Virus record (IMG/VR): IMGVR_UViG_3300023276_001086
Location: 103,833 to 167,832 of that record
Length of the DNA: 64,000 nucleotides
Direction: 5' to 3' (one strand)
From: a virus
Shown piece after piece: positions 31,304 through 63,279 of the stretch; position 1 is the stretch's first letter; every line of letters starts with the position of its first letter. Below the pieces are notes generated by a model. The model ran no database searches, was not told where the DNA came from, and was given only the letters and a program-made list of their open reading frames with translations. Both the position numbers and the translations under genes were made by a program.

Positions 31304-31912
31304 TCACGTGACTCTTCTGAATTTGGACTTGAGCCTGACTTGCCCAAGACCGGTTCGAGCCTTTCGATCCAGTGGCGCCAACAACACCCCACCCCTGCTC
31401 TGTAACGTATTCAAGTCTCTTTTGCTCATTGCTTCGCCGTAAGACGTGGTGATGAGCTTGCGCAGAGACTTGTCCCTACCAACCGGCGGCACATAAAGTG
31501 AACCGCCAGGGATAGGTTGTTTGATGGCAAAGATCGGGGTACCGGGTGCGTTAGTCTGCACAATCTTCTTGGCCATCCGGGTGTTCACCCTTGTGCCCAT
31601 CATCGAACTGAAGGAGTCCCACAACTTACCCGCCGCCGGTTTGGTGGCCAGTTGTAGACCAAGTTGAACGAGCGGGTGGATACCCGCCTTGGAGGCCCCG
31701 AGAGTAGCAACACCGGCCAAACGGGAGCCTACAAGGCGTTTGCGGTTATCCGTAGCAAGCCGAACAGCTGTCTGCTTCCAGTCGTTCTTTGACATTTGCT
31801 TGTTCGCGTTAGCGTTGAGCGGGATGCCGACCCCCGAATAGAGCATCCCACCTGCTTGCCGTCTGGCAGCAATTTTCTGAAGCTCATCGGAGAATGCGGC
31901 AAGGTCGATCAA
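31304..31912 (-). CDS. virion-associated protein with DELxKIA N-terminal tag
   Basis: 202 aa. Begins M-I-D-L-A-A-F-S-D-E-L-Q-K-I-A-A, the tag found almost verbatim on the 35955 and 36851 proteins. The remainder is basic, with weak hydrophobic patches (LAGVATLGASKAGI). It lies between sheath and tube, yet the tag links it to the putative ejection proteins. Function unknown. Confidence 0.6.
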   Translation of the reverse strand: MIDLAAFSDELQKIAARRQAGGMLYSGVGIPLNANANKQMSKNDWKQTAVRLATDNRKRLVGSRLAGVATLGASKAGIHPLVQLGLQLATKPAAGKLWDSFSSMMGTRVNTRMAKKIVQTNAPGTPIFAIKQPIPGGSLYVPPVGRDKSLRKLITTSYGEAMSKRDLNTLQSRGGVLLAPLDRKARTGLGQVRLKSKFRRVT

Positions 31913-31921
31913 GGAGCCCCC

Positions 31922-35110: not shown

Positions 35111-35125
35111 TGTTCATACCCCTCG

Positions 35126-35962
35126 TCAGGTTTTCACGATGACTTCGGCCGGATCGCCCTTTTGGCTACTGAGGACCTCGGTCACTTGGGCCGGACGTCC
35201 TCTAATAGAAGGCGGCCGGACATTGCCCTTTATGTTTTGAAATTCTACAGGATTGCCATCTACTTGCGAAACCCCAGTTCCCCAACCTTCTGACATTCTT
35301 ATGTTCGTCGGTTTGTACGCGTCGCCAACAGCTGCTGTAAGACGAGTCTCAACGGCTTGAAGTACCGGGACGTCTTCTTCGAGCACCTTTGCGCCCCAAC
35401 TGAACTGGAACGGGGTGACTGCGGGAACATTGATCGTTTCCTCTTTCGCAGCACCCTGTACAAGCGATCCCGGTGGAGAAGGGGCGAACACCTGACACCG
35501 TTGACCGATGTCGTGGAACCCGAGCTTGAGTAGTACCCGCCGGAGCAGCCACACATGAGAAGCCACCAACCAGGCGATATCTTCAGCCTCAGACGGTACG
35601 CGTGCGAGGCAGTTGAATGTGAGGTTGCCCGACATCATATCGACGTGTGTACGCTCGCCAGTCCTGACATCCTCGTGGAGAAGCTGATCCATACCCAACC
35701 CACTCCAACCAACGGCTGAGCGGACAAGGGCGATCACAGGTCGCTTCATCACCACGGCCTCTTCGACAGGCACATCCCGGGTAATGATGATCTCGGTCTT
35801 CTCCTCGTCGTCTTCCCAGTGCCAGTATCCTTCGGGTGCGGCCTTGAAGAGCTCACGCAAAAACAGCAGAGTCAACCGCTGAAGATGGCGGAGCGGGCTG
35901 GTAGACCAGCTACTCAAGGCGCCAGGGCTCAGTGGCGCTGAGGGAATGACTTCGTCAGACAT
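35126..35962 (-). CDS. putative tail terminator/neck protein
   Basis: 278 aa. N-terminal helix (PLRHLQRLTLLFLRELFKAA), then strand-rich core (ERTHVDMMSGNLTFNCLARV, WLVASHVWLLRRVLLKLGFH). Position directly upstream of the sheath in transcription order fits a tail-completion or terminator role. A helix followed by RPVIALVRSAVGWSGLGMD and a middle beta-sheet supports a small alpha/beta connector fold. Tentative. Confidence 0.45.
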   Translation of the reverse strand: MSDEVIPSAPLSPGALSSWSTSPLRHLQRLTLLFLRELFKAAPEGYWHWEDDEEKTEIIITRDVPVEEAVVMKRPVIALVRSAVGWSGLGMDQLLHEDVRTGERTHVDMMSGNLTFNCLARVPSEAEDIAWLVASHVWLLRRVLLKLGFHDIGQRCQVFAPSPPGSLVQGAAKEETINVPAVTPFQFSWGAKVLEEDVPVLQAVETRLTAAVGDAYKPTNIRMSEGWGTGVSQVDGNPVEFQNIKGNVRPPSIRGRPAQVTEVLSSQKGDPAEVIVKT

Positions 35963-36854
35963 CCCGTTGACCCTTCGTTACCCCACGCTGGTACGCATCC
36001 TCAAGGCTGCGCTTCTTCTCTTTGTCGAGCTGCCTCTTGTAACCGATCACCGACGCCCCACCGACCATGGGCAACGCGATCGATGCTATTTGGCGGACTT
36101 TGCTACCGGGAGAACCGCGGAACTTCTTCAGACCGTGGCGTACCACTTCGGAGGCGCCGTAGCCGATACCTGTCCCACCAGCGACCAGGGCAGTGTTGCC
36201 GAGGAACTGCTTGATCTTCTCCTTGTTCATCCGCCGGTTCTTATCCTCGGAGGTCTTTGGGAACCCCCGCACCATAGGATCATTCTCGTTAGCTTCCACA
36301 TACTCCTTGGCTGCGGCACGAGCTAATTCATGATGCTTACCCTTAGCAACGGCCCCACCAACCGCCCGGCCACCTGTGTACCCCAGAGCCGCACCAACCG
36401 CACTTGAGAGTAACTTACCAGTTTGCCCCATACCGCCACGGCGCGCTAAAGTATAGCCCAATCCTGCGCCACTCGAGACCCCAGTGATCCCACCAGCAAA
36501 CCGTGCGTGATCCACCCCAGCATCCTGGGCTGCGTTCTTTTGGAGCCTCTTCTTGCGGTATTGCACTGCCGCCGCCATCACTCCCCCGCTTACAAGCGCA
36601 GCTCCTACCGCGGGAGCGACATACCCAGGTGCCCGCAAGTACCGAAGCGTGACACTCTTCTCGCCGGCCTTCACGGCTCGATTTATCTTTCGGCTGTGCC
36701 TGATCGCCTCACCAATACGCATTCCAGTAGGCGCTGCGGCGCCAGAACCGACAGCGGCACCACCAATGACGGCGGCTTTCTCTCCCGTTGAGAGATCCCG
36801 CCCTTTCTCAGCGATCTTGACGAGCTCGTCACTGAATGCGCTGAAGTCGATCAT
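35955..36854 (-). CDS. tagged glycine-zipper virion protein
   Basis: 299 aa. Starts M-I-D-F-S-A-F-S-D-E-L-V-K-I-A-E. Several glycine-zipper segments follow: AAVIGGAAVGSGAAAPTG, APAVGAALVSGGVMAAAV, FAGGITGVSSGAGLGYTLA, SSAVGAALGYTGGRAVGG. Basic soluble linkers separate them. It looks like a protein that inserts into or crosses the host membrane at infection, but this is inferred from composition. The gene overlaps its neighbour by 4 bp. Confidence 0.6.
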   Translation of the reverse strand: MIDFSAFSDELVKIAEKGRDLSTGEKAAVIGGAAVGSGAAAPTGMRIGEAIRHSRKINRAVKAGEKSVTLRYLRAPGYVAPAVGAALVSGGVMAAAVQYRKKRLQKNAAQDAGVDHARFAGGITGVSSGAGLGYTLARRGGMGQTGKLLSSAVGAALGYTGGRAVGGAVAKGKHHELARAAAKEYVEANENDPMVRGFPKTSEDKNRRMNKEKIKQFLGNTALVAGGTGIGYGASEVVRHGLKKFRGSPGSKVRQIASIALPMVGGASVIGYKRQLDKEKKRSLEDAYQRGVTKGQRDV

Positions 36855-37423
36855 AGATCCCTCAAAAATGCCGGAGTCTCTTCAGGTTTCATGTCCCTAC
36901 CGTAGTTGGCCCTGTAGTAGCGGTTTTCTCGTTCCCACAATGCGTCTCGTACAGGTTTCAGTTCCGCATCTAGCTTCTTGGCGCTCTCAGTCTTCTTTAC
37001 AGCCTTCTCCTTTGCGGCGTCGGCTGTCTCCTTAGCGATGTTGGCCTTTCTCCGCTTGGCGGATTCTTCCATCCGTATCGCTACGTCTTCTTGGTCCGCT
37101 GCTCGCCGCGCTTGGTGCGCCTGATTTGCCTTTGTGCGAGACGCTGCGTCACGAGCCGCCCAGTGACTTCTATCTTTTGCGATACGCGCAGCCCGCGCAC
37201 CACGCTCTTTGAGAACTTGCCCGCCTAAAGCACCACCACCAGCACCAAGAGCCGCACCCCCCAGGCCCCCTATGAGGGCACGTTTCTTCCTACCCTCTTC
37301 GGGACCTGTGAGCCCTCCGATCGCAGCACCCAAACCAGCACCTCCGACACCACCAATGAGCGCCCCTCGGCCGGCGTAAGCAATCTTCTGCATCTCGTCG
37401 GTAAATGCGGAGAAGTCGATCAT
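36851..37423 (-). CDS. tagged glycine-zipper virion protein
   Basis: 190 aa. Starts M-I-D-F-S-A-F-T-D-E-M-Q-K-I-A-Y. Two zipper hairpins (ALIGGVGGAGLGAAIGGL, ALIGGLGGAALGAGGGALGG) of the type in outer-membrane lipoproteins. They are joined to a long basic/Ala-rich helix with heptads (RRAADQEDVAIRMEESAKRR). Probably an ejected or internal head protein. Confidence 0.6.
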   Translation of the reverse strand: MIDFSAFTDEMQKIAYAGRGALIGGVGGAGLGAAIGGLTGPEEGRKKRALIGGLGGAALGAGGGALGGQVLKERGARAARIAKDRSHWAARDAASRTKANQAHQARRAADQEDVAIRMEESAKRRKANIAKETADAAKEKAVKKTESAKKLDAELKPVRDALWERENRYYRANYGRDMKPEETPAFLRDL

Positions 37424-38308: not shown

Positions 38309-39112
38309 CTACTTCCTATGCTTCTCCACGAAGTTGTTCATCGCGGCCTCGTATCGGTTCTTGGAAATGCTCCCCGCCATGTACTTGTCGTGCATTGCGT
38401 TGACACGATCTGCCGCCCTACGTGTTCCCGCAGGCACCTTACGCGCCTTGTTCTCGGCGAAAGCCCCTAGACCCGCACGACCCGCGAGCAACCCACCGGC
38501 ACCGCCAACCGCACCACCGATGAGGGCACCTTTCCTTCCTCGAATAGCTCCCCCAGCAGCCGCACCAAGTAACCCACCTGCTCCGGCACCTAGCGTGCCC
38601 CCGAGACGCCTAGCCTCCCGTCCAACATTTGCAACGTACTGATCCTGACTCTCAGCAATCTTGATGGGACGCCACCCATCGAGTGTACGAAGCTGCCCCT
38701 CGGAGCCCAACTTGGCGATGGTATCCGCAAAACCGCCACTGAAATCCTGAACAGGCGGATCAACTTCTTCGAGAGCCGCGGTCTTCATCCGCATCGCAGA
38801 GTTGGGGTCGCCCATCTTGGGGGACCGCATGGAGCTGATGATAGGTGAGGAGTCTCGGTCGACTGAATATCGGAGACTCGGGTGCTTCTCCTCCACCAAT
38901 CTGGTGATCTTCCCTCGGCCGGCACGTCGACTTTCAACAATCCGAAGCCCCGCCTCGAGAGACTTGGCATCCGTGCCACCCGGCTGGTTGTCGCAACCCA
39001 GCGGATTCACCTTGTTGATTACGTTAGCGCCGTCGAGTTCGGCAGCGAGCTTCTCGAATTGATCAGAAGCGGTCGCACCACGCTGGGCATACTCTTGCTC
39101 AAAGATATCCAT
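38309..39112 (-). CDS. glycine-zipper virion-associated protein
   Basis: 267 aa. N-terminal tag-like SDQFEKLAAELDG. In the second half there are glycine zippers (LGGTLGAGAGGLLGAAAGGAI, ALIGGAVGGAGGLLAGRAGL) with basic separators. The end, RVNAMHDKYMAGSISKNRYE, is helical. It belongs with the other tagged proteins in the cluster. Confidence 0.6.
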   Translation of the reverse strand: MDIFEQEYAQRGATASDQFEKLAAELDGANVINKVNPLGCDNQPGGTDAKSLEAGLRIVESRRAGRGKITRLVEEKHPSLRYSVDRDSSPIISSMRSPKMGDPNSAMRMKTAALEEVDPPVQDFSGGFADTIAKLGSEGQLRTLDGWRPIKIAESQDQYVANVGREARRLGGTLGAGAGGLLGAAAGGAIRGRKGALIGGAVGGAGGLLAGRAGLGAFAENKARKVPAGTRRAADRVNAMHDKYMAGSISKNRYEAAMNNFVEKHRK

Positions 39113-39121: not shown

Positions 39122-40723
39122 CTACTGCGCTTTGGCAGCTTTTGCTGCCGCCTTTGCCGCCGCTTTCCCCGCCGATTGATTCTTGGCCAACGCCTTGACC
39201 CAACCACCGAGACTGTGGGCAGCACCTCCTCCGAGACCACCAATGATGGCACCCTTGGCAGCGCCTCGAGCGATAGCCCCACCGGGATGTTGCCGGTCAG
39301 CTTGCTCGAGGTCAGCTTTGTACCTGGCCGTAGAGTAACGAAGCTTGTTGAGATAAGTCGGGTTCCGCCGACCTTTCGCTAGTGCGGCCGCTTGGTCCGC
39401 TCGACGATCAATCTCGTCGTTGGACGCTTGGTTCTTGTTGAACTTCCTTCGGTGTGTGGCCTGCTCAGCGGCAGCGTGTCCCGCACCAAGAGCGGCCCCA
39501 CCGGCGGTGTAAGCTAACCGACCGCCAATACCCAGCGGAGCTGCGGTCTTCTCGTGAGCGTGCTTCTCTTTTCGTTCTTTCAACTTCTTCGCCGCAAGCG
39601 CTACACCACCAACCCCGACGCCGCCTCCCGCACCCGCCAGATACTTGTTCCGGTGCTTGCCTACGTGGTAGGCGGCCCGAGTTGGAAGAGACAGGCCTTT
39701 CGTGGAGATTTTCTCGGCCTTCACGCCCAACTCTTTTGCCAGCGTCTTGATGCCCGCTTCGACTCTCCCGAGCTTGTACGCGGAACTGACGCTGCCTGCG
39801 CGCTTTTCTAGTATTCGAATAGCAGCTTCGGCTACCGTGTCGGCGCCCTGCTTGGGCATAGGGGCACCAGCGGCACCTTGCTGTTGCTGTTCAGCCTGAG
39901 CAGCCGCAGGATCCTGCGCAGCGGTTGGATCCGCTCCCTGCCCCGGCTGAGCACCCCCTTGCTGCTGCATAGCCGCAGCCTGCTCTTGCTTGGCTGCGTC
40001 CTGCTGTTGAGCAGCTTGGGCCTGCTCACCCTGCACCTGGGCATTGACACCAGCTTGCTGGGCCTCCTGGGCCTCCTGCTGCGCTTTGGCCGAGCCACCT
40101 TGCGGAACTCCACCACCCTGTGCTTCGGCGGCCATGGCCTGTTGCTGCTGTTGCTGAGCCATTGCCTCGTTGGGGCTCGTAGCAGCAACCTGCTTGAGCT
40201 GCATCGCCAGCTGGTCAGCTGTCTGCATAATCTGCTGACGGTGCTGCTGCTGATTGACCACCTCGGTGAGCGCCTGATCCTTAGCCATCACGGCCTGCTC
40301 CATCGCCTGTTGGCGACCGGCGTTGGCCTGCTCGAGCTGTCCTTGGAGGGCCTCGGTGTTGGCGGTCATCTGCTGAACTTGCTGCTCAGCCTGCTGTTGA
40401 GCTTGCGCAGACTGCATGAGCTGCTGTTGCATGCCTTGGACAGTCTGCTGAAGAGCTCCACGCTCAGCAGCCATCTCCTGGTAGTCCATAGCCTGCACAA
40501 CGTTCGGGTCGGTCATAGCCGCCTCTTGCGTCATGCCCTGCATCTCTTCAGGAGTTTGGGCGACCTTACGGATGCGGGCTAGCTTCAGCAGGCCGGCCTT
40601 AGCTTCCTTGGTCAATACAGGCTCAGGGACAGCAACATCCTTGAGCTCTACGAAAAACGCAGCGGCTTGCGCCCAGGGGATGCCGCCCTGTTCTCCGGTG
40701 ATGTAGTCGTCGAAGTTGGACAT
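39122..40723 (-). CDS. Gln-rich coiled-coil / glycine-zipper virion protein
   Basis: 533 aa. The N-terminal part has tag-like repeats (AGLLKLARIRKVAQ). Residues about 75-290 are Gln/Ala-rich with heptads (QAQQQAEQQVQQMTANTEAL), like a rod or scaffolding region. The C-terminal half has zipper segments (AGAGGGVGVGGVALAA, IIGGLGGGAAHSLGG) and an AKAAAKAAAKAAKAQ tail. May be a scaffold or internal core protein. Adjacent to head genes. Confidence 0.55.
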   Translation of the reverse strand: MSNFDDYITGEQGGIPWAQAAAFFVELKDVAVPEPVLTKEAKAGLLKLARIRKVAQTPEEMQGMTQEAAMTDPNVVQAMDYQEMAAERGALQQTVQGMQQQLMQSAQAQQQAEQQVQQMTANTEALQGQLEQANAGRQQAMEQAVMAKDQALTEVVNQQQHRQQIMQTADQLAMQLKQVAATSPNEAMAQQQQQQAMAAEAQGGGVPQGGSAKAQQEAQEAQQAGVNAQVQGEQAQAAQQQDAAKQEQAAAMQQQGGAQPGQGADPTAAQDPAAAQAEQQQQGAAGAPMPKQGADTVAEAAIRILEKRAGSVSSAYKLGRVEAGIKTLAKELGVKAEKISTKGLSLPTRAAYHVGKHRNKYLAGAGGGVGVGGVALAAKKLKERKEKHAHEKTAAPLGIGGRLAYTAGGAALGAGHAAAEQATHRRKFNKNQASNDEIDRRADQAAALAKGRRNPTYLNKLRYSTARYKADLEQADRQHPGGAIARGAAKGAIIGGLGGGAAHSLGGWVKALAKNQSAGKAAAKAAAKAAKAQ

Positions 40724-42655: not shown

Positions 42656-43774
42656 CTAGTAGAAGTTGACAGACGGGAAGAAGACTTCGTCCTCTACCCG
42701 GTTGTTCATCGACCCCAGGTCCTCTTCGTCAGCCGGCGAGACGGCAGCGAGGATACCGTCCGTGTTGGTCGTCGCCGAACCAGAGTAGAGCTCCAGCTTG
42801 CGAACGGCCGCCACGTTGATGATTGACATGGCGATGTCTTCCCACGCTTGCCACGTGATGAGGTTGACCACCTTGTCGATGTAGAACTTGACGTTGTTCA
42901 GGATGTAGAACCGACCCAGGAAGTCGGGGGAGGTGAAGGCGTAGAGGTTTCCGGGGATCAAGATGTCAGTCTTGATCGTCCGAACGAACCCGCGGCCAAC
43001 GAGGGTCTTGTACTTGTAGCCTTCGACCGCAGTCTCAGACTGAAGCTTGGACCCGAAGTCCTCAACCGTCCACTGGTTGACGTCGTCGAAGTCCACCTCG
43101 GTGAGGAGGATTTTCTCGCAGCGAAGTCGGTTGCCATCGAGCAGCTTGTGCAGCTTGATGATGTCCGGACGCTGGAGAGGCCACACGAAGGCGTCGTTGT
43201 TGGTATCCACTCGAGCGAACTCGCCCTTGGCGATGGACGCCTCGACCACGGTGCCGGCAGCGATCGTGGTGTAGTGGAGGTCAGTCGCGCCACCGTTGGC
43301 CTCGACCTGAAGAGCCTGCACCGCAGCTTCGCAGTGGATGAGGAACTCGCGGTCCTCGATCTCCTGGATGTCTTTGATGCTGTTGTCTTCGATGACCTTC
43401 GTGATCTTCATCCTGTACGCCAGGAGCTCCTGCTCGTACTTCTCGAACCTTTCGGACGAGATGGTGAAGAAGGGGACCTCGCAACGAGGCGCGCTGATGA
43501 GTCTGGCGTCGGGCTGACCCCGGAAGTTCATCGCCATCGCACGCGACTCGGGCTCGATCTCCTCAACCATCACGAGGGTGTCGTGGTGGATCGAAGGCTT
43601 CGCATCGTTCTTCGTGACGTTGCGAGGGGGGATGATGTTCCGACAGAAGGCCACTTCACGGAGGTGGTCACGGATGTACTCACCACCGAAAGCGGCAACT
43701 TTCTCTTTGCCCTCAGTCGAGTCGAGCTTGTCGAGGAACATACCGTTGAATACGTCTGCGGGTACTGCTGACAT
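42656..43774 (-). CDS. putative major capsid protein
   Basis: 372 aa. HK97-like build: N-terminal helix, then RCEVPFFTISSERFEKYEQE (E-loop/spine region), long spine helix (IQEIEDREFLIHCEAAVQAL), P-domain strands (NRLRCEKILLTEVDFDDVNQ) and a final hydrophobic strand. It follows a decoration-like gene and precedes a strong terminator, as expected for the most abundant head protein. N-terminal T-E-G-K-E-K-V-A resembles the recurring K-[IL]-A tag and may be processed. Identity inferred from context and length. Confidence 0.7.
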   Translation of the reverse strand: MSAVPADVFNGMFLDKLDSTEGKEKVAAFGGEYIRDHLREVAFCRNIIPPRNVTKNDAKPSIHHDTLVMVEEIEPESRAMAMNFRGQPDARLISAPRCEVPFFTISSERFEKYEQELLAYRMKITKVIEDNSIKDIQEIEDREFLIHCEAAVQALQVEANGGATDLHYTTIAAGTVVEASIAKGEFARVDTNNDAFVWPLQRPDIIKLHKLLDGNRLRCEKILLTEVDFDDVNQWTVEDFGSKLQSETAVEGYKYKTLVGRGFVRTIKTDILIPGNLYAFTSPDFLGRFYILNNVKFYIDKVVNLITWQAWEDIAMSIINVAAVRKLELYSGSATTNTDGILAAVSPADEEDLGSMNNRVEDEVFFPSVNFY

Positions 43775-44284: not shown

Positions 44285-44647
44285 CTAGCTGAGAACGAAC
44301 TCCTCCAAGGAGGTATCGCCCGCTGGCTTGTCACCCAAGTAACCGAGAGGAGACTGCGCCGCAGTCATCCCAACCGCTTGCTCAACAACGTCGAGCTCAT
44401 TCGATGCCGCCTTCTGAAGCAGGAACTCCCGAGTTTCGTCGGGTGTACGCCCCTGTTCGATTCCCTTGGCATGCACTTCGTGTGCGATCTTCTCGACCCG
44501 CTCGTTCAGTTGGTACTGACCGAGGGCGTTCTCGAGGGCGATTGCTCGCTCTCTCCACGCATCTCGTTCCGACGCCAACTTCCTAAGCGTCCCTGGGACC
44601 TCGCCGAGGACAGCATGAACTTGAGCTGCACTGAGCTTTTCCATCAT
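44285..44647 (-). CDS. coiled-coil protein with KLA/KIA motifs
   Basis: 120 aa. Helical throughout: GTLRKLASERDAWRERAIAL, then ERVEKIAHEVHAKGIEQG. It contains two K-[LI]-A phrases, like the virion tag but internal. Adjacent to the decoration gene; possibly a scaffold or core component. Confidence 0.5.
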   Translation of the reverse strand: MMEKLSAAQVHAVLGEVPGTLRKLASERDAWRERAIALENALGQYQLNERVEKIAHEVHAKGIEQGRTPDETREFLLQKAASNELDVVEQAVGMTAAQSPLGYLGDKPAGDTSLEEFVLS

Positions 44648-44655: not shown

Positions 44656-45762
44656 CTACCGGGCCGCGCCCGATGTGCCCTGAGCAAATCCAGCACCGGC
44701 GCCAGCCCGCCTCTGCGTCATTTGCCCCATCTTGGAAGCGATTTTGCAGTAGTCACACGCACTTTTCTCCAGGCCGTCCCTGTTACAGGTACAACCCTCA
44801 GACGCGATCTTCTGCACGAGGTGCCGAGCAGAGGCAATCTTTGCCCCGCCCCGCGCCACGAGTTCCGCACCCAGAGCGTCTTGGAGGGCGCTATCGCCCG
44901 CCTTACTCTGAGCCGGCTCGTTGAGAACCTCACCCATCCGCTTCTTCGGCACTGCCTTGGCGTCACGTTTCGTGAAATTGATGGCCGCATCGTTAGAGGC
45001 GATCATCCGCTCTTGGCCAGTGACCTCCGCAGGACGCGCTACCTGAGAAGGCTGATCCTCGGGTAGTGCTGAGGTCTTGGGAGTTGTGATTGTTGCTGCG
45101 GTACCATCGGCCGGGGACTCCCCAGCAGCGGCGGCTTTCCGCAACATAGCTTCTTTCATCTTGGCGACAGGGCCGCCAGATTGAACCATGACGCCGGGCT
45201 TCGAACCGAGGAGTCCGTTTCCGGGAACCTCGTTACCGCCGGGGCGCCTGGTCGCGTCCGTCCCCATTGAGCTCGGTGCTGCCTTGGGGTTGGCACCTGC
45301 CTCTTGGGGAGGGGAAGTCGGAATAGATACCGATGTCGCCCCAGACCCGCCAATGCTGTCGGGCATCCGCTCGGTGTGGGGGGCATTGATGTCGTTGGGC
45401 AGCGTGTTCGGGCCGATCCCGATACCTGCTGTCTGTCCCGGTTCGGCAGTCTTGATACGACCGGTCGGTACACGACCCATGCTCAACGCATGATCAATGT
45501 ACTCCACGGCCGACGCAAGTTTCTCGATACGAGCAGAGGATGTCTTCTCTGGACCGGATTCGGCACCGGTATCCGCCGCTACTTCTTCCTTGGCAGCTGC
45601 CTTGTCCGCGCAGGCCTTGCAGAGCTCAGAACCTTGAATCGCAGGACGACCGCATGTCTGACATGCCGACTCACCCTCCGTCTCCGCAGCGAGCTTTTGC
45701 ATCGCTCCAGCCTGCCCGTCCAGGAGCGCAGCTTCGATAAGCTGATTCAGCTTGAGCTCCAT
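44656..45762 (-). CDS. virion-associated protein with two zinc clusters
   Basis: 368 aa. N-terminal tag phrase AMQKLAAETEG, then CQTCGRPAIQGSELCKAC, a rubredoxin-like ribbon. The middle is low-complexity (Pro/Gly/Ala/Ser). It ends with a second cluster (CTCNRDGLEKSACDYCK). Both ends are metal-binding and the middle flexible, as in a tether. Function unknown. Confidence 0.55.
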   Translation of the reverse strand: MELKLNQLIEAALLDGQAGAMQKLAAETEGESACQTCGRPAIQGSELCKACADKAAAKEEVAADTGAESGPEKTSSARIEKLASAVEYIDHALSMGRVPTGRIKTAEPGQTAGIGIGPNTLPNDINAPHTERMPDSIGGSGATSVSIPTSPPQEAGANPKAAPSSMGTDATRRPGGNEVPGNGLLGSKPGVMVQSGGPVAKMKEAMLRKAAAAGESPADGTAATITTPKTSALPEDQPSQVARPAEVTGQERMIASNDAAINFTKRDAKAVPKKRMGEVLNEPAQSKAGDSALQDALGAELVARGGAKIASARHLVQKIASEGCTCNRDGLEKSACDYCKIASKMGQMTQRRAGAGAGFAQGTSGAAR

Positions 45763-45777: not shown

Positions 45778-46092
45778 TCATCTGACCACAGGTGGCGGCA
45801 GAGCTTTCTGCGCAGAGGTCAGACTCACATTTGGCGTTGGTGGTGTGGTGCCGACCGACGAGTAGTCGGTCTTCTGTAGATTGGTACTCCGAAGACCCTT
45901 TGAGATGATCTTCGAAGGGGGCACGGGGGATTGGGGAGTGGCCTTCATCTGCCCCGTCATCCCGCCCGGCGCCGGTGGCGCGTTGATGGCAGGTACAGTC
46001 GGAGCATTGACAGCAGCCATGTTCGCGCTGATTTTGATCAGCTCGTCTACCATGGCTCTCATCGCCGTCGACCCGCATCCCCAGTCTCCCAT
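45778..46092 (-). CDS. small tagged Pro-rich protein
   Basis: 104 aa from ATG 46092, or 94 aa from ATG 46062. RAMVDELIKISANMAAV is the D-E-L-x-K-I tag. The rest is Pro/Thr/Ser-rich and probably unfolded, ending LPPPVVR. May be a tag carrier or protease substrate. Confidence 0.5.
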   Translation of the reverse strand: MGDWGCGSTAMRAMVDELIKISANMAAVNAPTVPAINAPPAPGGMTGQMKATPQSPVPPSKIISKGLRSTNLQKTDYSSVGTTPPTPNVSLTSAQKALPPPVVR

Positions 46093-49343: not shown

Positions 49344-49985
49344 TCAGGTCCTGTTCAGATGCTCAGCGAACCCCATGGCACCCTTCGCGTTTTCACGGGT
49401 CTCCTTACGGTCAGCGATGAGATTCTTGATCTTATCTTGCTCCTGATCGTACTTGAACTTCTCGCGATTCAGTCCGAGTGTCGCCGCACTATCAGCAGAG
49501 CGGGCCTGGCGGTCCAGTTGCTTATGGGCAGGGTCACCAGCATTCGTCATCATGCCCGCCGTGAACTGCGCGATCGGGAAGTCCAAACCTGGTCGTTGGA
49601 CCTTCTGCTGGGCGCTGCCGAGATCGGCCAATGTGCGCGGATCGACATAGTCATCCTGAAGGGCCATACGGTTGACGAAGGAACTTGCGACTACCGGGTC
49701 TCTTGCGAGATCTGGTGCGGCGTTGTGCAGCGTGTTGAACATCGCCCTCGTCTTGGTAGCTGGCAGTTTCTTCAACTGCGGATTGTGGTCCATCATCCGC
49801 TTGAACCCACGAGAGCGACCCACCAGGCTCTTGATCTCCTGGTAACCTTCGTGGGCCGCCATAATGGCGAGAGGCGCAGCAACGCCGAAACCCGCCTGCA
49901 CCGCGTGACTTTTCCAGTTGACCTCGGCCGTCTTTTCCGTGGTCGGGGGTGTTTCTTCTGCGAGGAATGTCTCTACAGGGTTCAT
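49344..49985 (-). CDS. hypothetical virion-associated protein
   Basis: 213 aa. N-terminus M-N-P-V-E-T-F-L-A-E-E...E-K-T-A-E is tag-like. HAVQAGFGVAAPLAIMAAHE is a moderately hydrophobic helix. The rest is helical and basic (LNREKFKYDQEQDKIKNLIA). Function unknown; it sits among the tagged proteins. Confidence 0.5.
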   Translation of the reverse strand: MNPVETFLAEETPPTTEKTAEVNWKSHAVQAGFGVAAPLAIMAAHEGYQEIKSLVGRSRGFKRMMDHNPQLKKLPATKTRAMFNTLHNAAPDLARDPVVASSFVNRMALQDDYVDPRTLADLGSAQQKVQRPGLDFPIAQFTAGMMTNAGDPAHKQLDRQARSADSAATLGLNREKFKYDQEQDKIKNLIADRKETRENAKGAMGFAEHLNRT

Positions 49986-50353
49986 CAGTACATGACTCCT
50001 GTTCTTGGGTTATAGGTGGCTCGATGTTGCGCGGCCCGAGCTCGGAGACGCGACTTCTGCAACTGTACCTGCTTGCCTATGGGGTTGCCAAGCGCATCAT
50101 TCGCGACGTAACCAGCGGCAGCATAGGGCGCCACCTTAGCCGCCCCGTGGGCCGCGTAACCAAGCGGAGTTCGAATAAGGCCTTTGCCTATGACACCGCG
50201 AGCGGCCTGGCCAACGGCTGAAGTGGTCTCACCCATCACCTTGGTCGCGGCCTTGCCCGCCCCCACAATACCACCACTGATGGCACCAAGGGCCGCCACC
50301 TTCTCGAGACGAACCAGGAACGCGGCGACCTGGAGCTCTCTTCGTGTCGTCAC
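49985..50353 (-). CDS. small tagged glycine-zipper protein
   Basis: 122 aa. LQVAAFLVRLEKVAALGAIS starts with the F-x-x-R-L-x-K-V-A tag, then GAISGGIVGAGKAATKVMG (zipper) and PYAAAGYVANDALG. Short, membrane-active looking; similar in build to the 62860 protein. Confidence 0.55.
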   Translation of the reverse strand: MTTRRELQVAAFLVRLEKVAALGAISGGIVGAGKAATKVMGETTSAVGQAARGVIGKGLIRTPLGYAAHGAAKVAPYAAAGYVANDALGNPIGKQVQLQKSRLRARAAQHRATYNPRTGVMY

Positions 50354-51258
50354 TGGATTACCGACTTGACCTGATTGTTGACGTGCTCGAACCGCTCATC
50401 GAGACTCTCGGATGCAGCGAGGGTAGCGAACAGTCCGGTAGCGACCTTGGCGAAGTGATCGAAGGTCGTACAGACGGGATGCGCCGGGTTGATAACCTGG
50501 TTGGCCGAGGCCTGCTTGGTCATCACCACAGCTGGTACGTCCCCCACTTGCCGGCTGACAGTTTTGAGAGCCAACTTGGTGAGGTTGTGGTGCGGCGACC
50601 GATCGGTGTAGATGCGCGCCACCTCGGCTGGGGAGTGTCCCTCGAGGATAAGCTCACGAGCTACCTTGCACATCGCGTCCGCAGCTTCGTCGTACACAAC
50701 CTGATTCGTCATCAGCCTGGCGTGCATCTGGTCTCGAGCAGTCTTCACCATATCGCGCAACTCAAAGAGCTCACGATAAGGGTTGAGGTGGGGGTAGTCC
50801 GGCTGCGTCGCAGCGGCAGTCTTCGTCATACCCCTGTTGCGTGCGCGGGCACCATCCGCCCCAGGAAGAAAGCGCTCCGAGGCATGGAGCCGTGCCCCGG
50901 CCGTCTTGGTGATAGCCATACCACTATCCGATCCCGAACGGAGTTCCTGAAGTACCCTAGCGCCATCGGCCGGACCACCAGAAAAATCAATCACTCGATG
51001 GTCCGCTGCGCTTTTCGTGAACTCCTGCTCGAACGCGTAGTTGTTTGCAAACTCAGCCACCCTCCGAACATGATCCGGGTTGAGTCCGCTTTCATCACGA
51101 AGAACTGACACGACTGCGTCGGTGAGGTCAACTCCACCCTCAACATATTTGGCACTCGCAGTTTTGCCAAGCAACCGAAGACGTTCCGGATCAACTCCCC
51201 TTGAGGAACGATCCGACACCGTGTAAGACTCCGTTCCCAGCATTTGCTTGTTCCCCAT
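50350..51258 (-). CDS. virion-associated protein
   Basis: 302 aa from ATG 51258 behind AAGGAGGTC; the upstream ATG 51276 lacks a site. Helical with several K-x-A phrases (LGKTASAKYV, FAKVATGLFA). First gene read leftward from the divergent gap with 51326. Could be a head-internal protein. No portal-like features. Confidence 0.5.
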   Translation of the reverse strand: MGNKQMLGTESYTVSDRSSRGVDPERLRLLGKTASAKYVEGGVDLTDAVVSVLRDESGLNPDHVRRVAEFANNYAFEQEFTKSAADHRVIDFSGGPADGARVLQELRSGSDSGMAITKTAGARLHASERFLPGADGARARNRGMTKTAAATQPDYPHLNPYRELFELRDMVKTARDQMHARLMTNQVVYDEAADAMCKVARELILEGHSPAEVARIYTDRSPHHNLTKLALKTVSRQVGDVPAVVMTKQASANQVINPAHPVCTTFDHFAKVATGLFATLAASESLDERFEHVNNQVKSVIQ

Positions 51259-51325
51259 GGCCGACCTCCTTACCAAGAGTTCGGCTACACTTCTGCTAGT
51301 ATCAAGTTAGCATACGGGTGATCTG

Positions 51326-53065: not shown

Positions 53066-53100
53066 GCCCCGACATCCGTCGGGCGCTTCTTCCTTAGCTA
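53066..53100 (+). terminator. terminator-like hairpin
   Basis: CCCGAC, ATCC loop, GTCGGG, then CGCTTCTTCCTTAGCTAG. The pyrimidine-rich tail and TTAGCTAG match the other plus-strand terminators here, though the T-run is interrupted. Lies between two convergent genes. Confidence 0.55.
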
Positions 53101-54960
53101 GTCATTGGTGAAGTCGACATGGTCGGCACTGGTCGGTACCAGGATGTCTGGTCGGGCCTTGATGAACATCGAAGCGAGGAAGCAGTAGAGGATGGAGTGG
53201 AACGAGTCGTCACTCTTGCCGGGGCTGAGCTTGTACTGGGTCATGTGAATCTGGTGATTGAACTCCGAGAATATATTGAGCATGTCGCTACCGTAGGGCG
53301 TTCGGAACTCCTCGTTCTTAGGGAACCAGATCTTCTGAGCTCGGATAGCGTTGAAGACATCAGCCATGACCTCTGTGCGGTGGAGCATGAAGCGCCCCAG
53401 GTTCGGCTCCCAACTCACCTTCTTCTTGGGCGCCGAGGCGTACTGATACTTCATGACCTTGTTGGCCCCGAAGTTACGCATCAGCCAATCGTTGCGGTCA
53501 AAGCCGCCACCGTAGTCAGAGCCCAGGACAACGAAGTTCACCTGGTTGAGCAACGCCGCGATCTTCTGAAGCTGAAGCTGTGGGTTGAGATCCTCACCCG
53601 TGAACCGGTGGATGTAGAAGATCTGGAACTGCCCGCCCATGTAACCACCCAGAGAGAGGACGGAGTAAGACTCGTTCTCCCCAGTCCCGTGGTCGAGCCC
53701 GGCCGCCACACCGCCGTAACATTTCTTGGCGTTCTCCAGGACGGCGTCCATCTCGTACATACGGATGGTGTCCTGGCAACACACCTCCACCTGCTTCTTC
53801 GTCAGAGGGCGCTGGCCGCTATCGAAGGACAGGCCGAGAACCTCGTTGTTGAACTTGGCGGTCTCGTAGTTCTCGAGTGGGAACAGCACACTGTCGTGCC
53901 AGCCGTCAGGGTCATTGATGATCCAGGGAACCATCAGCTGGTTGACCCGATAACCCTCAAACGCTACGCGGTGGGAATTGTCTTCGGTGACAGGTTGACC
54001 GGCGGCCCACTGAGCCAGGGGGTGCGCTGGGTTGATGGCCCGCTTACACTTCGAACAAACGGGGCCCCTCTTCCCGATGTTGCGCGCACCAAGCACGTTC
54101 CAATACCACGTCTCGGGTTTCGACCCCCCGCAGGCCTCGCACGGAACCAGCCACTCGTTCTGCGTAGAGAACTCCGACCAGTAGGTCTCGATGGTGTTGT
54201 CCATCGACTTCGGCGTGCCCGAGTAACAGAAAATCTTCCAGGGTGAGTGAGACGCGCACTGCTCGATGACCGGCACGTTGGCGAAGATGATGTCCTGAAT
54301 CTCATCAATCAGGATCATGTCCGCTGGGATACCGCGCGTTCGGTCAGCGTTGAGGAACGCGTACCTGATACGGACCTGAGACCGGTTCTTGAACTGCTTG
54401 AACAGCACGTTCTGACTGAGCCCGGAGTCAATGAGGTACGAGAGCTCGGGGCTGATATCGATGGGTTCCTTCAACCGGTCAACTGAGAAGACCGTCGCCT
54501 GGGTAGCAGTGGCGCTGACATACAGCACCTTGAAGCCGTAGTTGATGCCGCAGTAGGCGATGGCCTTGTTGCCCAGCATCGTAGACTTCTCAGTCTGCCG
54601 GGCACACTTCAGGAGCAACCGCCGAGCTGGCGTGTTGTAGGGCGCACGCAGGTAGCGGCGACCATCGAAGCTGAAACGTTGGACATCCCCGCCAACTGGG
54701 ATTCGAATAGAGAACTCAGTGAACTCAGAGGGCGTGGAGAATGTCTTGAGCTTATGGCTGACGACGGCGTCCTCGCCGAACATCACGTTCTCAACTTCAG
54801 CAGCCTCTAGCGCATCGTCCTCGTCACCCATTACGAGGTCGAGCTCATCCTCGAGACCCTGGTTGAGCTCTCCCGCCTCGAGAGCCTCCTTTGCCCGAAC
54901 ATAGAACCCGAGGTCGGTGGCCGGTGAGGAAACGTTGACTGCTGCGCCCATTGTGATCAC
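53098..54960 (-). CDS. terL: terminase large subunit
   Basis: 620 aa. ATPase: C-A-R-Q-T-E-K-S-T at 119-127 (Walker A of the R-Q-x-E-K-S-T type), MILIDE at 215-220 (Walker B plus catalytic Glu), S-G-T-P at 247-250 (coupling motif). Zinc ribbon CEAC at 274-277 and CSKC at 302-305, a feature of some terminase subgroups. Nuclease: G-L-D-H-G at about 421-425, V-L-G-S-D-Y at about 478-483, and D-D-S near 592, an RNase-H-like metal site. It packages DNA with the portal and cuts it. No strong ribosome site precedes ATG 54960; ATG 54951 is also possible. Confidence 0.9.
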   Translation of the reverse strand: MITMGAAVNVSSPATDLGFYVRAKEALEAGELNQGLEDELDLVMGDEDDALEAAEVENVMFGEDAVVSHKLKTFSTPSEFTEFSIRIPVGGDVQRFSFDGRRYLRAPYNTPARRLLLKCARQTEKSTMLGNKAIAYCGINYGFKVLYVSATATQATVFSVDRLKEPIDISPELSYLIDSGLSQNVLFKQFKNRSQVRIRYAFLNADRTRGIPADMILIDEIQDIIFANVPVIEQCASHSPWKIFCYSGTPKSMDNTIETYWSEFSTQNEWLVPCEACGGSKPETWYWNVLGARNIGKRGPVCSKCKRAINPAHPLAQWAAGQPVTEDNSHRVAFEGYRVNQLMVPWIINDPDGWHDSVLFPLENYETAKFNNEVLGLSFDSGQRPLTKKQVEVCCQDTIRMYEMDAVLENAKKCYGGVAAGLDHGTGENESYSVLSLGGYMGGQFQIFYIHRFTGEDLNPQLQLQKIAALLNQVNFVVLGSDYGGGFDRNDWLMRNFGANKVMKYQYASAPKKKVSWEPNLGRFMLHRTEVMADVFNAIRAQKIWFPKNEEFRTPYGSDMLNIFSEFNHQIHMTQYKLSPGKSDDSFHSILYCFLASMFIKARPDILVPTSADHVDFTND

Positions 54961-58154: not shown

Positions 58155-58527
58155 TCGTCCCAACCTTCTTGGCGTCGATGGCCATTAGGGCCTTGTGGAT
58201 TTTCTCGTGAGAGGGCGGCATGATCACAGCAATCTTCTCGATGGTTATGCACCAGCTGTAGAGCTCAGGGATGAACTCAACAGTGAGCTGGTTCTCCCGT
58301 CCCTTGAGACCGAAGGACTCAACCATTGCTTCCCAGATGAGCTGCGCGTCCTCATAGGTCCAGTAGGTGCCGTCATCCTTGCGGTAGAGGTGGATGATCA
58401 GGTTGGGTGGGCGGACGACGTATTCAGCCCCGAAAGTACTGAGCTCGATTGGTGTCAACTCCACCGCCTCTGGCGCGGGTATTGTGGCGTCGGTATTGAA
58501 GATTTTCGGGGGTCGCGCTGCCACCAT
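58135..58527 (-). CDS. hypothetical virion-region protein
   Basis: 130 aa; ATG 58527 overlaps the upstream TGA as TGATG, and the longer in-frame reading is antisense. Beta-rich (FGAEYVVRPPNLIIHLYRKD, ENQLTVEFIPELYSWCITIE) with a helix. No tag. Function unknown. Confidence 0.55.
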   Translation of the reverse strand: MVAARPPKIFNTDATIPAPEAVELTPIELSTFGAEYVVRPPNLIIHLYRKDDGTYWTYEDAQLIWEAMVESFGLKGRENQLTVEFIPELYSWCITIEKIAVIMPPSHEKIHKALMAIDAKKVGTNASLDT

Positions 58528-59393: not shown

Positions 59394-59399
59394 GTTTGC

Positions 59400-61412
59400 C
59401 TACGCCTCGGGTCCCTGTTGCCGGAAGACGAGCTTCTTCAGCCCAATGATGACCTCATCGAGCCGCTCCATGGCACTCTTCACAGAGTCTTCGGGCACAT
59501 CCTCCAACCCGAGACGGGTGGCCATAAGTAGGCCGGCCAAACGACTAAGCGCGTCCTCGAGGTCGGGGAGCCAGCCCACAAAGGTCCCCACGTTCTCTGG
59601 GTTGATGAAACCGAGAGCGAGAACCTTGTCCACGGTGGTCACGTCATCAAGAGCCGCAGCCTCTTTGAGCAGAGGACTGATGCGGGGCAGCTCTGCCCAC
59701 ATACCCCTTGCCTCTTCTCGGGCCTCTGCCACCTTCTCCGCATAGGTTCCGATGGGGCGGCAACCTTCGACTACCACCGAACCGACTTGTGCAGCCTTGA
59801 CGAGTGTGTTGACAGCGAACTCGGGTTCCAAACCCAGCACGGCAGCCATGAAAGTCGCGTCACCACCATGAAGGCTCTCTCGCCACTCATGAGCTACCTT
59901 CTCCAACGGACGGCCACGGAACGACCAAGTGTTTCCGTCAGAGACGATCTGAACAATGGAACCTGCTTGACGGGCTGACGCCTTCTTGACGAACTCCTTG
60001 GCGTCCTCAATGAGAGGGGTGACGGTCTTACCCAACGGGGCCCAACGAACATCTTCCGGCAGCATGGCTTCGCTGTCACCGAGCTTCACTGGGGCTTTGA
60101 GCTTGCTGTCGAACCTAATCGTGACAGGCTCGCCCATCATCGTTTCGCAGAGATAGCCCACTCCCTTTTCATCGCGAATGGTGGAGTTGATCTCCGTGGG
60201 TTGGAAGGCCATCACTCCCCCAGTCGTGGTGACCCGGTAGAAGAAGCCGTAACCCTCAGGCTTGGCCTTGATGATATTGGTGTCGCGGCCCGCAAAGCTA
60301 CCAACAATTTGTGCCTGAACAGCCGAGGCCGAACCGTTGGTGAACAATGCGAAAGGAAGGGTCACCCCATCGTAGTCCAGTACGTTAGGGAACACCCAGC
60401 CCATGACCTCTTTGCCATCCTTGGTCTTGACCCGGTACTGGCCGAAACGTTCAATCGGCCCAATCTCCTCATCTTCAAGAGCTGCGTGGACCACAGGATT
60501 GGAACTGATAGTGGCCGCGCCGGTCTTGTCGGCAATGGTGACGGTATCCTCACCTGCCATATCAACAGCCGTGTTCCTATCGATATCGTCGACAGTGGGT
60601 TCGAACATCTCACCGTTGGCCATCTTCAGCCGATAAAACTCCCCATGCCGCTCAACCTGGAGAACCGTTGGTGGGATGCTAGCCGAAGCCACCTTCTCCA
60701 CATCGGCAGATGTCATTGGCTCGACTTCCCCCAAGAACTGCAAGAAGGGCAACGCCGCCTCGTTATGTACCAACGCTCGAGTGAGGTGCGCGTCCTTCTC
60801 CAACATCTGCTGCATGCGCAGGAGGTCACCTGCATTGATGGTGTGGGCGATGTGCTCGAGCAAGAACTCGGGCTTGAGCGAGCTCAACTTGGTCTGGGCA
60901 GCATCGACTACCTGGCCGCCCGACATGGCGTGTTGCCGACTGGTCGGTGGGTAGAGCTGACCACCCATCCCGGTATCACCAGACGACGTCCGAGCCGCAT
61001 CGAATACTTGCGGACGGAAGAGTGCCGCACGAAGCCGCTCGTCACTCAGGCGGGAAGGGTTGCCCTTGGCGTCGATGAAAACGTCAAAGGGTTGAAGCTT
61101 GCTGCTCTTGATGATGATCGGTATGCGGAGAAAGCGGACACCCTGAGCGGCCATCTGGGCCTTGGTTCCAGGACCCTGAAGTGTCGTGGCCGACTTGTTG
61201 TGTACCTGGAAGTACCCCGTACCGTAGCCGGCCTCCCCGTCTACCTTCTGCATGACGGGGTTCGTCTCGTAGGTCCCGACGTAGGGGTGCTGCTCCATTA
61301 GAGCCTTGAGCGCTTCCCGCGGCCAAGTGTCCGCCGTTTCAGACAAACGAGTCTCAGATGCCAGCTTCTCAACTACAGGCGGGGTTGTATCCAGGTAGAG
61401 ATCGGGGGTCAT
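59400..61412 (-). CDS. large virion-associated protein
   Basis: 670 aa from ATG 61412 (GGAGG, ATGA overlap). Opens with T-T-P-P-V-V-E-K-L-A-S, the tag type. K-[VLA]-A-x phrases recur (VEKVASASI, LEKVAHEW, LVKAAQVG, AEKVAEA). A middle beta-rich section (KAKPEGYGFFYRVTTTGGVM, VTIRFDSKLKAPVKLGDSEA) suggests repeated barrel-like domains. No portal or enzyme motif is recognised. Confidence 0.5.
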   Translation of the reverse strand: MTPDLYLDTTPPVVEKLASETRLSETADTWPREALKALMEQHPYVGTYETNPVMQKVDGEAGYGTGYFQVHNKSATTLQGPGTKAQMAAQGVRFLRIPIIIKSSKLQPFDVFIDAKGNPSRLSDERLRAALFRPQVFDAARTSSGDTGMGGQLYPPTSRQHAMSGGQVVDAAQTKLSSLKPEFLLEHIAHTINAGDLLRMQQMLEKDAHLTRALVHNEAALPFLQFLGEVEPMTSADVEKVASASIPPTVLQVERHGEFYRLKMANGEMFEPTVDDIDRNTAVDMAGEDTVTIADKTGAATISSNPVVHAALEDEEIGPIERFGQYRVKTKDGKEVMGWVFPNVLDYDGVTLPFALFTNGSASAVQAQIVGSFAGRDTNIIKAKPEGYGFFYRVTTTGGVMAFQPTEINSTIRDEKGVGYLCETMMGEPVTIRFDSKLKAPVKLGDSEAMLPEDVRWAPLGKTVTPLIEDAKEFVKKASARQAGSIVQIVSDGNTWSFRGRPLEKVAHEWRESLHGGDATFMAAVLGLEPEFAVNTLVKAAQVGSVVVEGCRPIGTYAEKVAEAREEARGMWAELPRISPLLKEAAALDDVTTVDKVLALGFINPENVGTFVGWLPDLEDALSRLAGLLMATRLGLEDVPEDSVKSAMERLDEVIIGLKKLVFRQQGPEA

Positions 61413-61705
61413 GAAATCCTCCAAGTACCGGCCGGCGTTCCAGCCGAGCCACTGTCGCCGACTTCGGCATTCGCCGTAATGTGTTGTACCACTGCCTGAG
61501 CAATGGCACGAGCCAACGGAACCACTATGGTCCGGTCGAACGGCGGCGTGCCGCGCTCAAACTCTATCGTCGATTCAAGCGTACCATCCTCTTTCGGTGT
61601 CTGGACAATCTCTGCCCCAATCACCTCATCGGTATTGATCGCGTTGTGTTCTCGTTCCAGGATATCGATAATGCTGATCTCGAGCTCGCCCGCATTCATC
61701 GCCAT
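61409..61705 (-). CDS. hypothetical protein
   Basis: 98 aa. Acidic helix (LEISIIDILEREHNAINTDE), a beta pair (TLESTIEFERGTPPFDRTIV) and a helical end (LARAIAQAVVQHITANAEVG). Overlaps the following gene by ATGA. May be a small baseplate component, judged by its place next to the spike gene. Confidence 0.5.
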   Translation of the reverse strand: MAMNAGELEISIIDILEREHNAINTDEVIGAEIVQTPKEDGTLESTIEFERGTPPFDRTIVVPLARAIAQAVVQHITANAEVGDSGSAGTPAGTWRIS

Positions 61706-61707
61706 AG

Positions 61708-62859
61708 CTACTCCCCCAAAGACTTGGTGGTCTGCCCAGACGGTGCGACCACGTTCGGTTTAGGGATGCCGGTAACGCCAGCAGAAGTGGTGTGGGTGTG
61801 CGCCGCCATGAACAGCATGACGTCCGGCGTAGCTAGCACGAAGGGGGTGCTCGCACTGCCACCAATCTTAGTCATGGGACTGTCGATCACCTTCTGCCCG
61901 CTGATGGTGTCTTTGCTGTTGTTGGCTGTGAGCTCGTGATTGCCCTCAACGGACACGGTCTGGTTACCGCTGATGGTCGTCTCAGTCGCCCCATACTGCT
62001 GAGTGACCGTCCCGTCTACCGTGTCCTCGAGGGTGCCCTCGATGTGCCGAGTGTAGTCACCCTTCACCGTAACATCGACATCGCCATCAGCATTGACCGC
62101 GAAATCGTAGACCGCTGACCCGTCATCCAGAGTACGGGCCGTCGAATCGATAGAGTTGGGTGCCACCACGCAACGTAGCCTAGTCTCGTCGTCCACGTGA
62201 CCGGCCGTGATCATTACAGTGTTCTTCTCCTCTTGGGCGTGGTCTCGCGCAGCCAGTGTGAAGACGGTCTTGGCCTCGCTGTCGGGATCCGTGTCGCTCT
62301 TTGTGGTAGTCCAGAGCATCTCCCCACCGAAGTTGAGCATCTGGTAGTTCTCGCAGACGTCACGGATCATGTTGGTGATGGGGATGTAGACTCGCTTAGC
62401 GACAGCAGTGGCTTCGATTTCAATGACCCCGCCTCGGTGCAACCAGATCTGGTTACCGTCCCGACACCGCATCATCAGATCACCCTGCTGGAGCTTGGGG
62501 CGTCCGGAGGCGAAAGTTACGTCAGCTTCCTCCCCGTCCCCGGTGTCGGGTTGTGTCGTCCCGTCTCCGGTAGCACCGCGCTCAAAGGTAGTGGTGAAGC
62601 AGAGAACAAAAGGCCTGTCGTCGGTGGGTGTGCAGACCTGTACCTTGGCGGCCACCTCCGGCATGACAAAGATGCCCTCACCGGAATGGAAGTGAAGGTA
62701 CGGAGCACCAACCTGAACATCAAGCAAGAGACGGTGAGAGCTGACTGTACGAACGTCGATGGTCCAGTGTGCCATATCGACATTGATGATCTGCCCACAC
62801 TCAATGCGGACGGGGTTACCACCCCGCTGAGCCATCCCAGTATCTTGCGAGTAGGACAT
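61708..62859 (-). CDS. baseplate spike / gpV-like protein
   Basis: 383 aa. Residues about 15-90 (VRIECGQIINVDMAHWTIDV, then VQVGAPYLHFHSGEGIFVMP) form the OB-fold of gp5/gpV/VgrG baseplate hub proteins. D-L-M-M-R-C-R-D-G-N-Q-I-W-L-H-R-G-G-V-I-E-I is the typical strand pair. Residues about 270-335 (VDVTVKGDYTRHIEGTLEDT and the following V-x-G repeats) are a triple-stranded beta-helix stalk. The C-terminal H-T-H is the usual metal-binding region near the tip. It pierces the cell envelope at the tail end. Confidence 0.8.
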   Translation of the reverse strand: MSYSQDTGMAQRGGNPVRIECGQIINVDMAHWTIDVRTVSSHRLLLDVQVGAPYLHFHSGEGIFVMPEVAAKVQVCTPTDDRPFVLCFTTTFERGATGDGTTQPDTGDGEEADVTFASGRPKLQQGDLMMRCRDGNQIWLHRGGVIEIEATAVAKRVYIPITNMIRDVCENYQMLNFGGEMLWTTTKSDTDPDSEAKTVFTLAARDHAQEEKNTVMITAGHVDDETRLRCVVAPNSIDSTARTLDDGSAVYDFAVNADGDVDVTVKGDYTRHIEGTLEDTVDGTVTQQYGATETTISGNQTVSVEGNHELTANNSKDTISGQKVIDSPMTKIGGSASTPFVLATPDVMLFMAAHTHTTSAGVTGIPKPNVVAPSGQTTKSLGE

Positions 62860-63279
62860 CTAGTTCGGGGCGGCCGAAGAGCGACCGGCCAGGTAACCCG
62901 CACCGCCGAGAGCACCCACTCCGAGAGCTGCCGCGCCCACAGCCTTACCGGTGTTGCTCCTCGCCACTCCGCGCAGACCACCGGAAACGTGATCCCAAGT
63001 ACCCATGTCCCCAACGCCCTTGCCCAGGCTCTTCGCACCGGACTGAACCGGGCCCTGGATCGGGGTCAGCGCACCCACGCGTTTGGCCTGTGCGCGGACA
63101 CCGCCCTGCCACGCCTTGCCTAGCCGGCCGAGAACTCCTCCCCCAGCTTTGGAGCCAGTGAGCATCATCTTGGTTCCCTTGGCTGCGCCACCGAGGAACG
63201 CTACCTTTGTCAATATCCTTCGTTTTTCGATTTCCCCAAGTTCGTCGAAGAACGCAGAGTAGGTCGTTTCCTCGATCAT
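62860..63279 (-). CDS. tagged glycine-zipper virion protein
   Basis: 139 aa. S-A-F-F-D-E-L-G-E-I-E is the N-terminal tag variant, then V-A-F-L-G-G-A-A-K-G. The C-terminal zipper AVGAAALGVGALGGAGYLAG spans a membrane. Next to the beta-prime-like gene and the spike; another candidate ejection protein. Confidence 0.6.
   Translation of the reverse strand: MIEETTYSAFFDELGEIEKRRILTKVAFLGGAAKGTKMMLTGSKAGGGVLGRLGKAWQGGVRAQAKRVGALTPIQGPVQSGAKSLGKGVGDMGTWDHVSGGLRGVARSNTGKAVGAAALGVGALGGAGYLAGRSSAAPN

Follow-up and report, generated by a model that had tools for sequence, protein, structure and literature searches.

Introduction

The cargo that a phage packs and injects is normally identified by mass spectrometry. 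In phage T4, the internal proteins IPI-III are unrelated proteins with a short N-terminal propeptide that ends in a site of the protease gp21; for IPIII, ten N-terminal residues are enough to enter the head, and its targeting residues (4 and 7) precede its processing residues (8 and 10) (PMC9026906). Phages phiKZ and SPN3US have multi-site propeptides that a single protease cuts at a short motif (PMC10052503); in SPN3US, the cut follows A-x-E and the propeptides are mostly 111-254 residues long. N-terminal packaging signals also exist outside T4: in phage P1, the first 30 residues of DarB direct a foreign protein to the head interior (PMC9024508). Finally, the capsid protein gp27 of Bacillus phage G has 282 residues (31.2 kDa) as encoded and 255 residues (28.2 kDa) when mature, the latter figure being marked by an asterisk that stands for N-terminal sequencing (Hua et al., 2017, Table 1, PMC5646251).

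The window analyzed here is a stretch of 64,000 nucleotides and spans positions 103833-167832 within a virus record of 167.8 kb. As in T4, unrelated proteins bear a short N-terminal extension with a putative protease site at its end, core proteins hold many sites, and the predicted fold of the protease matches gp21. The tag has the layout of T4 IPIII in different letters, F-x-D-E-L-x-K-I-A, with K-x-A as the probable cut code in place of L/I-x-E. Also unlike T4, the head genes have no detectable sequence relation to those of that phage, and the tagged families are many more (32 groups). Multi-site propeptides, one protease and a short motif recall phiKZ and SPN3US, but the propeptides here would measure only about 15-27 residues. 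The DarB signal, unlike the present tag, is described for one protein; to our knowledge, no shared short motif is known for it. With phage G, the window shares a homologous protease (gp19) and a homologous capsid protein (gp27), which is cut after Ala27 at the aligned position; phage G differs by an Ala at P3 of this site, and tagged cargo was not found described for it. In the open-access literature, neither a K-x-A prohead cleavage motif nor a shared N-terminal tag was found for such phages.

Late Genes and Motif Sites of the Window

The part of the window between 28.5 and 64 kb contains mostly minus-strand genes, among them head and tail genes. The features below were obtained by translation, motif counts and comparison with homologues; the strict tag is F-x-[DE]-E-[LM]-x-K-[IL]-A.

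28561-30537, minus: ORF with N-terminal K-L-A site (HFQKLA, 30469-30537) and further sites at K37, K61 and K101.
31868-31912, minus: tag LIDLAAFSDELQKIA of ORF 31304-31912 (translation, strict pattern); putative propeptide, predicted cut after A15.
36810-36854, minus: tag MIDFSAFSDELVKIA of ORF 35955-36854 (translation, strict pattern), kept in homologues from other phages.
37379-37423, minus: tag MIDFSAFTDEMQKIA of the glycine-zipper-like ORF 36851-37423 (translation, strict pattern; weak Gly-zipper match).
39044-39112, minus: N-terminal K-L-A site (QFEKLA) of ORF 38309-39112; QFRKLA in the homologue of locus L003.
39122-40723, minus: core-like protein in which three sites (TKEA, LKLA, RKVA) cluster in the N-terminal part; homologues keep K in 86-100% and A in 86-100%.
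42656-43774, minus: major capsid protein, HK97-like (phrog_2522).
43694-43774, minus: capsid residues 1-27, predicted propeptide ending in K25-V26-A27; in phage G, the cut follows the A27 that aligns here.
44285-44647, minus: capsid-adjacent scaffold-like protein, conserved K53-I-A site (K kept in 94%, A in 100%).
44656-45762, minus: putative core/scaffold protein; 7 K-x-A sites, the N-terminal one being AMQKLA (45688-45762); sites at K23, K81 and K318 conserved.
46024-46092, minus: N-terminal tag MVDELIKISA of ORF 45778-46092, with Ser at P1; DEMTKIA, DELGKIA or DEMTKIC in homologues.
46114-47079, minus: putative core/scaffold protein with 5 K-x-A sites; those at K26 and K35 near-invariant, with a variable middle residue.
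47153-49330, minus: prohead (head maturation) protease (phrog_18299); catalytic domain spanning roughly residues 58-275; K-x-A sites in the protease itself at K32, K272 and K310.
49344-49985, minus: small protein, E-K-T-A at its N-terminal end; in homologues, K-x-A is kept behind a linker of variable length.
50294-50353, minus: N-terminal K-V-A site (RLEKVA) of ORF 49985-50353; K and A conserved in all 5 sequences.
50350-51276, minus: putative core protein with 9 K-x-A sites (motif count, conservation in homologues).
53098-54960: large terminase.
59400-61412, minus: late protein; VVEKLA at the N-terminus (61359-61412), 5 further K-x-A sites inside (translation, motif count).
63199-63279, minus: N-terminal region FFDEL...ILTKVA of ORF 62860-63279; the relative in genome G007 keeps FFDELGQIEKRA.

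The initial annotation had noticed near-identical openings in the proteins starting at 31912, 36854 and 37423, and the strict tag was indeed found in all three translations. Its looser K-x-A forms were recovered at 30537 (HFQKLA), 39112 (QFEKLA), 45762 (AMQKLA), 50353 (RLEKVA), 61412 (VVEKLA) and 63279 (ILTKVA), and its guess that the capsid protein belongs to the set was borne out by KEKVA at capsid residues 23-27. At 46092, DELIKIS-A is present, but Ser replaces the last Ala. The core-like protein at 39122-40723 was absent from its list. The mature parts of the tagged proteins gave no mutual match in an all-against-all BLAST (E ≤ 0.01). The N-terminal tag is thus real, but a description as a tag only is too narrow because most K-x-A sites are internal to late proteins, which the initial annotation had overlooked: single ORFs hold 9 (50350-51276), 7 (44656-45762), 6 (59400-61424) or 5 copies (46114-47079, and the protease at 47153-49330).

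Several other features of the record were observed. The ends of the contig (window positions 63281-63985 and record positions 1-5658) overlap. The last ORF of the window resembles the terminal part of an RNA polymerase in which beta and beta' are fused and which is a relative of the Salmonella phage Arash virion polymerase (gp206 and gp216); cleavage of this fusion at the subunit border was considered and dropped, as most genomes have no K-x-A site at the junction. Just left of the window start, at G000:C1:102986-103402, lies an ORF whose open frame of 373 aa joins a version of the capsid protein's N-terminus (about 140 residues, 63% identity) to a C-terminal part of unrelated sequence.

Enrichment and Conservation of the K-x-A Motif

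In the late proteins of the window, the pattern [LIVMFAY]-x-K-[ILVMTSQEA]-A occurs at 57 sites, against 14.1 expected from within-protein shuffles (maximum 29 among 300 shuffles), and 20 copies of the same pattern lie in the first 60 residues of these proteins, against 2.4 expected. The left 28 kb of the window, which contain early genes, showed no motif excess (5 observed, 5.4 expected). We also scanned all residue pairs at spacings up to eight in seven related genomes, using shuffles in 60-residue blocks. K-x-A was the top-ranked pair of the virion module in five of the seven (z 4.4-8.9) and ranked fourth in that of the window genome (z 4.7); in genome G001 it stood outside the ten most enriched pairs of the module. 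It was absent from the top pairs in the non-virion remainder of any of the seven genomes. Over these genomes, virion-module proteins have 52 sites in their first 50 residues (7.3 expected), 172 in their middles (44 expected) and 17 in their C-terminal 50 residues (6.4 expected). Outside the virion module, the N-terminal motif is mildly enriched (55 observed, 31 expected), which fits scattered cargo genes, but noise as well.

A capsid-protein search of one viral collection gave 226 loci that encode relatives. At many K-x-A sites in these relatives, Lys and Ala are nearly invariant, while the middle residue and the lengths of the linkers around the site vary. When 18 conserved sites were pooled, Lys was found at P3 in 91% and Ala at P1 in 92%, both residues having been used to choose the sites; P5 was Leu, Met or Ile, P4 often Glu, and P1' Ala, Ser or Glu. 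Sequence information was confined to P5-P2', with background level outside. Judged from these alignments, K-x-A is a linear motif under selection. As a separate observation, inserts of about 300-400 residues, which are probable inteins, were seen in the protease of seven loci (L004, L024, L033, L044, L049, L068, L079) and in the conserved terminase or RNA polymerase of genomes G001, G004, G006 and G009.

The motif is also present in phages with distant capsids. Salmonella phage Arash, a cultured relative, and Vibrio phage D69, whose capsid proteins are 27-28% identical to that of the window, carry it in the capsid protein, the protease and core proteins. The capsid protein of Arash (28% identical) has the form GLVKEA, at a position where the alignment is ambiguous by two residues, and its protease and adjacent core proteins also carry the motif. 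The published virion proteome of Arash comprises 116 of 252 proteins (PMC10585845). All seven Arash proteins with at least five sites, the first of them before residue 60 (gp97, 206, 220, 222, 223, 225 and 242), are included in this proteome, for which the chance is 0.46 to the power 7, or 0.004. This overlap is taken as supporting evidence only, because the proteome is broad and may include contaminants.

The Prohead Protease and Predicted Processing of the Capsid Protein

Half of the protease family members (14 of 28) matched phrog_18299, a head maturation protease. H124, H125 and S181 are invariant across the 28 sequences and are presumably the active-site His and Ser. A search with the protease profile among the sequences of solved structures gave no protease, only chance matches, so a comparison of folds was needed. 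The model of residues 1-320 has a mean pLDDT of 73.5, with about 90 for most of the catalytic core. Its top match was T4 gp21 (Foldseek probability 0.97, E 0.014; Z 8.7, rmsd 3.0 over 139 residues), followed by the varicella-zoster (VZV), cytomegalovirus (HCMV) and herpes simplex (HSV-2) virus proteases (Z 4.8-5.6). The catalytic domain is therefore predicted by the model to have the T4 gp21/herpesvirus assemblin fold. The family takes in phage G gp19, a homologue by sequence (E 8e-10) and by structure (1.4e-10), as well as Arash gp222 and proteins of cluster C mycobacteriophages and of Rhodococcus and Gordonia phages. In the protease itself, K-x-A sites were found at residue 32 and again close to the end of the catalytic domain, on its C-terminal side (residues 272 and 310).

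For the capsid protein, published data on the distant phage G homologue show cleavage after the aligned alanine. Without its first 27 residues, gp27 has 255 residues and a computed mass of 28,170 Da, compared with the published 28.2 kDa, and this match of mass and length indicates a cut after Ala27 (GRVALA/QAMAN). When the two capsid proteins were aligned without guidance, this residue shared a column with Ala27 of the window capsid protein (GKEKVA/AFGGE), which is accordingly predicted from its sequence to lose residues 1-27. As the phage G site reads V-A-L-A, with Ala instead of Lys at P3, its cleavage code is not identical to that of the window. The Myrna capsid was considered as a second processed example and dropped, since the structure paper holds no cleavage data.

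The N-terminal Tag and Its Candidate Cargo

The strict tag was searched within the first 75 residues of ORFs from 11 related genomes and 80 loci. It was found on 88 ORFs, and the parts behind it fall into 32 groups without detectable similarity; no strict tag was detected in reversed or shuffled N-termini. The tag ends in a K-x-A identical to that of the core proteins and the capsid protein. We compared N-terminal with internal sites, picked by a pattern blind to the upstream part and counted by group. Among the groups of N-terminal sites, 37% have Phe at P9, 42% have Asp at P7 and 44% have Glu at P6, versus 7%, 9% and 13% for internal sites. Phe at P9 together with Asp-Glu at P7-P6 occurs in 15 of 45 N-terminal groups and in 3 of 82 internal groups (p = 1e-5).

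Candidate cargo genes are also located outside the window. At G000:C1:30122-32729 of the window genome, six small ORFs lie close together, interspersed with untagged ORFs, and open with, or bear near their start, M-I-[DN]-[FY]-x-A-F-x-D-E-[LMF]-x-K-I-[AS]; they are partly absent from the nearest relative. In the related genome G002, an SNF2-type helicase bears the tag; in Arash, the homologue gp217 lacks the tag and is an abundant virion protein. Two other SNF2-type helicases (G000:C1:67151-68728 and G009:C1:28223-32608) have a longer N-terminal extension, with K-K-[AE]-[GA]-like residues directly ahead of the helicase domain. Short, basic or glycine-zipper-like sequences are common among the payloads and would be compatible with a role as membrane-crossing ejection proteins.

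Proposed Maturation Pathway and Alternative Explanations

The motif, its enrichment and conservation, the protease family and the predicted fold are established by the present analysis, and we consider it very probable that K-x-A is the cleavage motif of the prohead protease. The initial annotation had offered a prohead-protease site as one reading of the tag, which gains strong support from the N-terminus of the phage G capsid protein, from the multi-site core proteins beside the capsid and protease genes, and from the protease fold. We infer that the protease cuts sites other than that of the capsid protein. In the proposed pathway, the protease (47153-49330) would recognize [LMI]-x-K-x-A and cut after Ala. 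Core and scaffold proteins, with many copies each, would be degraded into pieces within the prohead, the capsid protein would be trimmed of residues 1-27, and the protease would process itself. Proteins with F-x-[DE]-E-[LM]-x-K-[IL]-A at their start would be prohead cargo, docked onto the core by their N-terminal part; the protease would then strip the tag and free the mature cargo inside the head for ejection with the DNA. This account as a whole, a K-x-A protease code with F-x-D-E-tagged prohead cargo, appears likely to us.

That the N-terminal F-x-D-E extension is a T4-like capsid-targeting sequence is somewhat less secure, but still probable by analogy. Its role in targeting we infer from T4 and from the extra residues conserved mainly in N-terminal copies, and the same two observations favor the packaging into the head suggested by the initial annotation. 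Packaging and cleavage are probably one thing, target then cut, as in the T4 capsid-targeting sequence. As Lys at P3 (91%) and Ala at P1 (92%) depart from L/I-x-E, the tag would work like a capsid-targeting sequence without being that of T4.

Alternatively, the motif could be a cleavage site only, with entry into the head through other contacts and without any targeting role for F-x-D-E. In its favor, the majority of the K-x-A sites lie inside proteins and have no F-x-D-E, and Arash packs its helicase without a tag; we nevertheless regard this explanation as unlikely, since F, D and E at P9, P7 and P6 are conserved over unrelated tagged proteins, unlike at internal sites, and since the first 10 residues of T4 IPIII both target and hold the cut (PMC9026906). 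Still, the Arash helicase gp217 and the RNA polymerase, both abundant in virions of this lineage, bear no N-terminal tag, so the tag is not the sole way into the head. A short portable N-terminal tag on unrelated proteins might also be a docking peptide of the cargo-loading type, whose K-x-A binds the inner capsid or the scaffold and stays on the protein. This seems very improbable, as the capsid protein and the protease carry the motif too, the corresponding residue is where the phage G capsid protein is cleaved, and many copies in putative scaffold proteins suit degradation sites better.

The resemblance of the N-termini could instead reflect recent gene duplication followed by divergence of the remainder, and the tag DNA is indeed alike within the window genome (ATGATCGACTTC..GCA). 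However, both TCN and AGY serine codons occur at one tag position, the sequences upstream of the starts are unrelated, and tags recur in phages with distant capsids; duplication may spread the tag, but leaves its upkeep unexplained, and we find shared descent scarcely credible as the explanation. As for an artefact of Ala/Lys-rich helices and glycine zippers, its chance is close to nil: Ala and Lys are abundant in late proteins, but composition bias was excluded as the source of the motif by local-composition shuffles, which fall short of the observed counts, the K-x-A spacing stands out, and the controls contain no strict tag.

Implications for Phage Cargo

With this tag, the capsid-targeting principle of T4 would reach a lineage whose protease code differs. 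As a very probable protease cut site and a probable packing label in one, it would make hidden phage cargo predictable from sequence: applied to this widespread group of phages, a rule of 9 residues would point to cargo and maturation sites, among them the tagged run outside the structural region. The tag is also a possible means of loading proteins into heads. Furthermore, we lean slightly toward the idea that, in this large uncultured phage lineage, the portable F-x-D-E-L-x-K-I-A is a general label for import and release that moves freely onto new payloads such as small membrane-active proteins, an SNF2-type helicase and runs of tagged ORFs. If this is true, the virion cargo of these phages evolves as a plug-in set.
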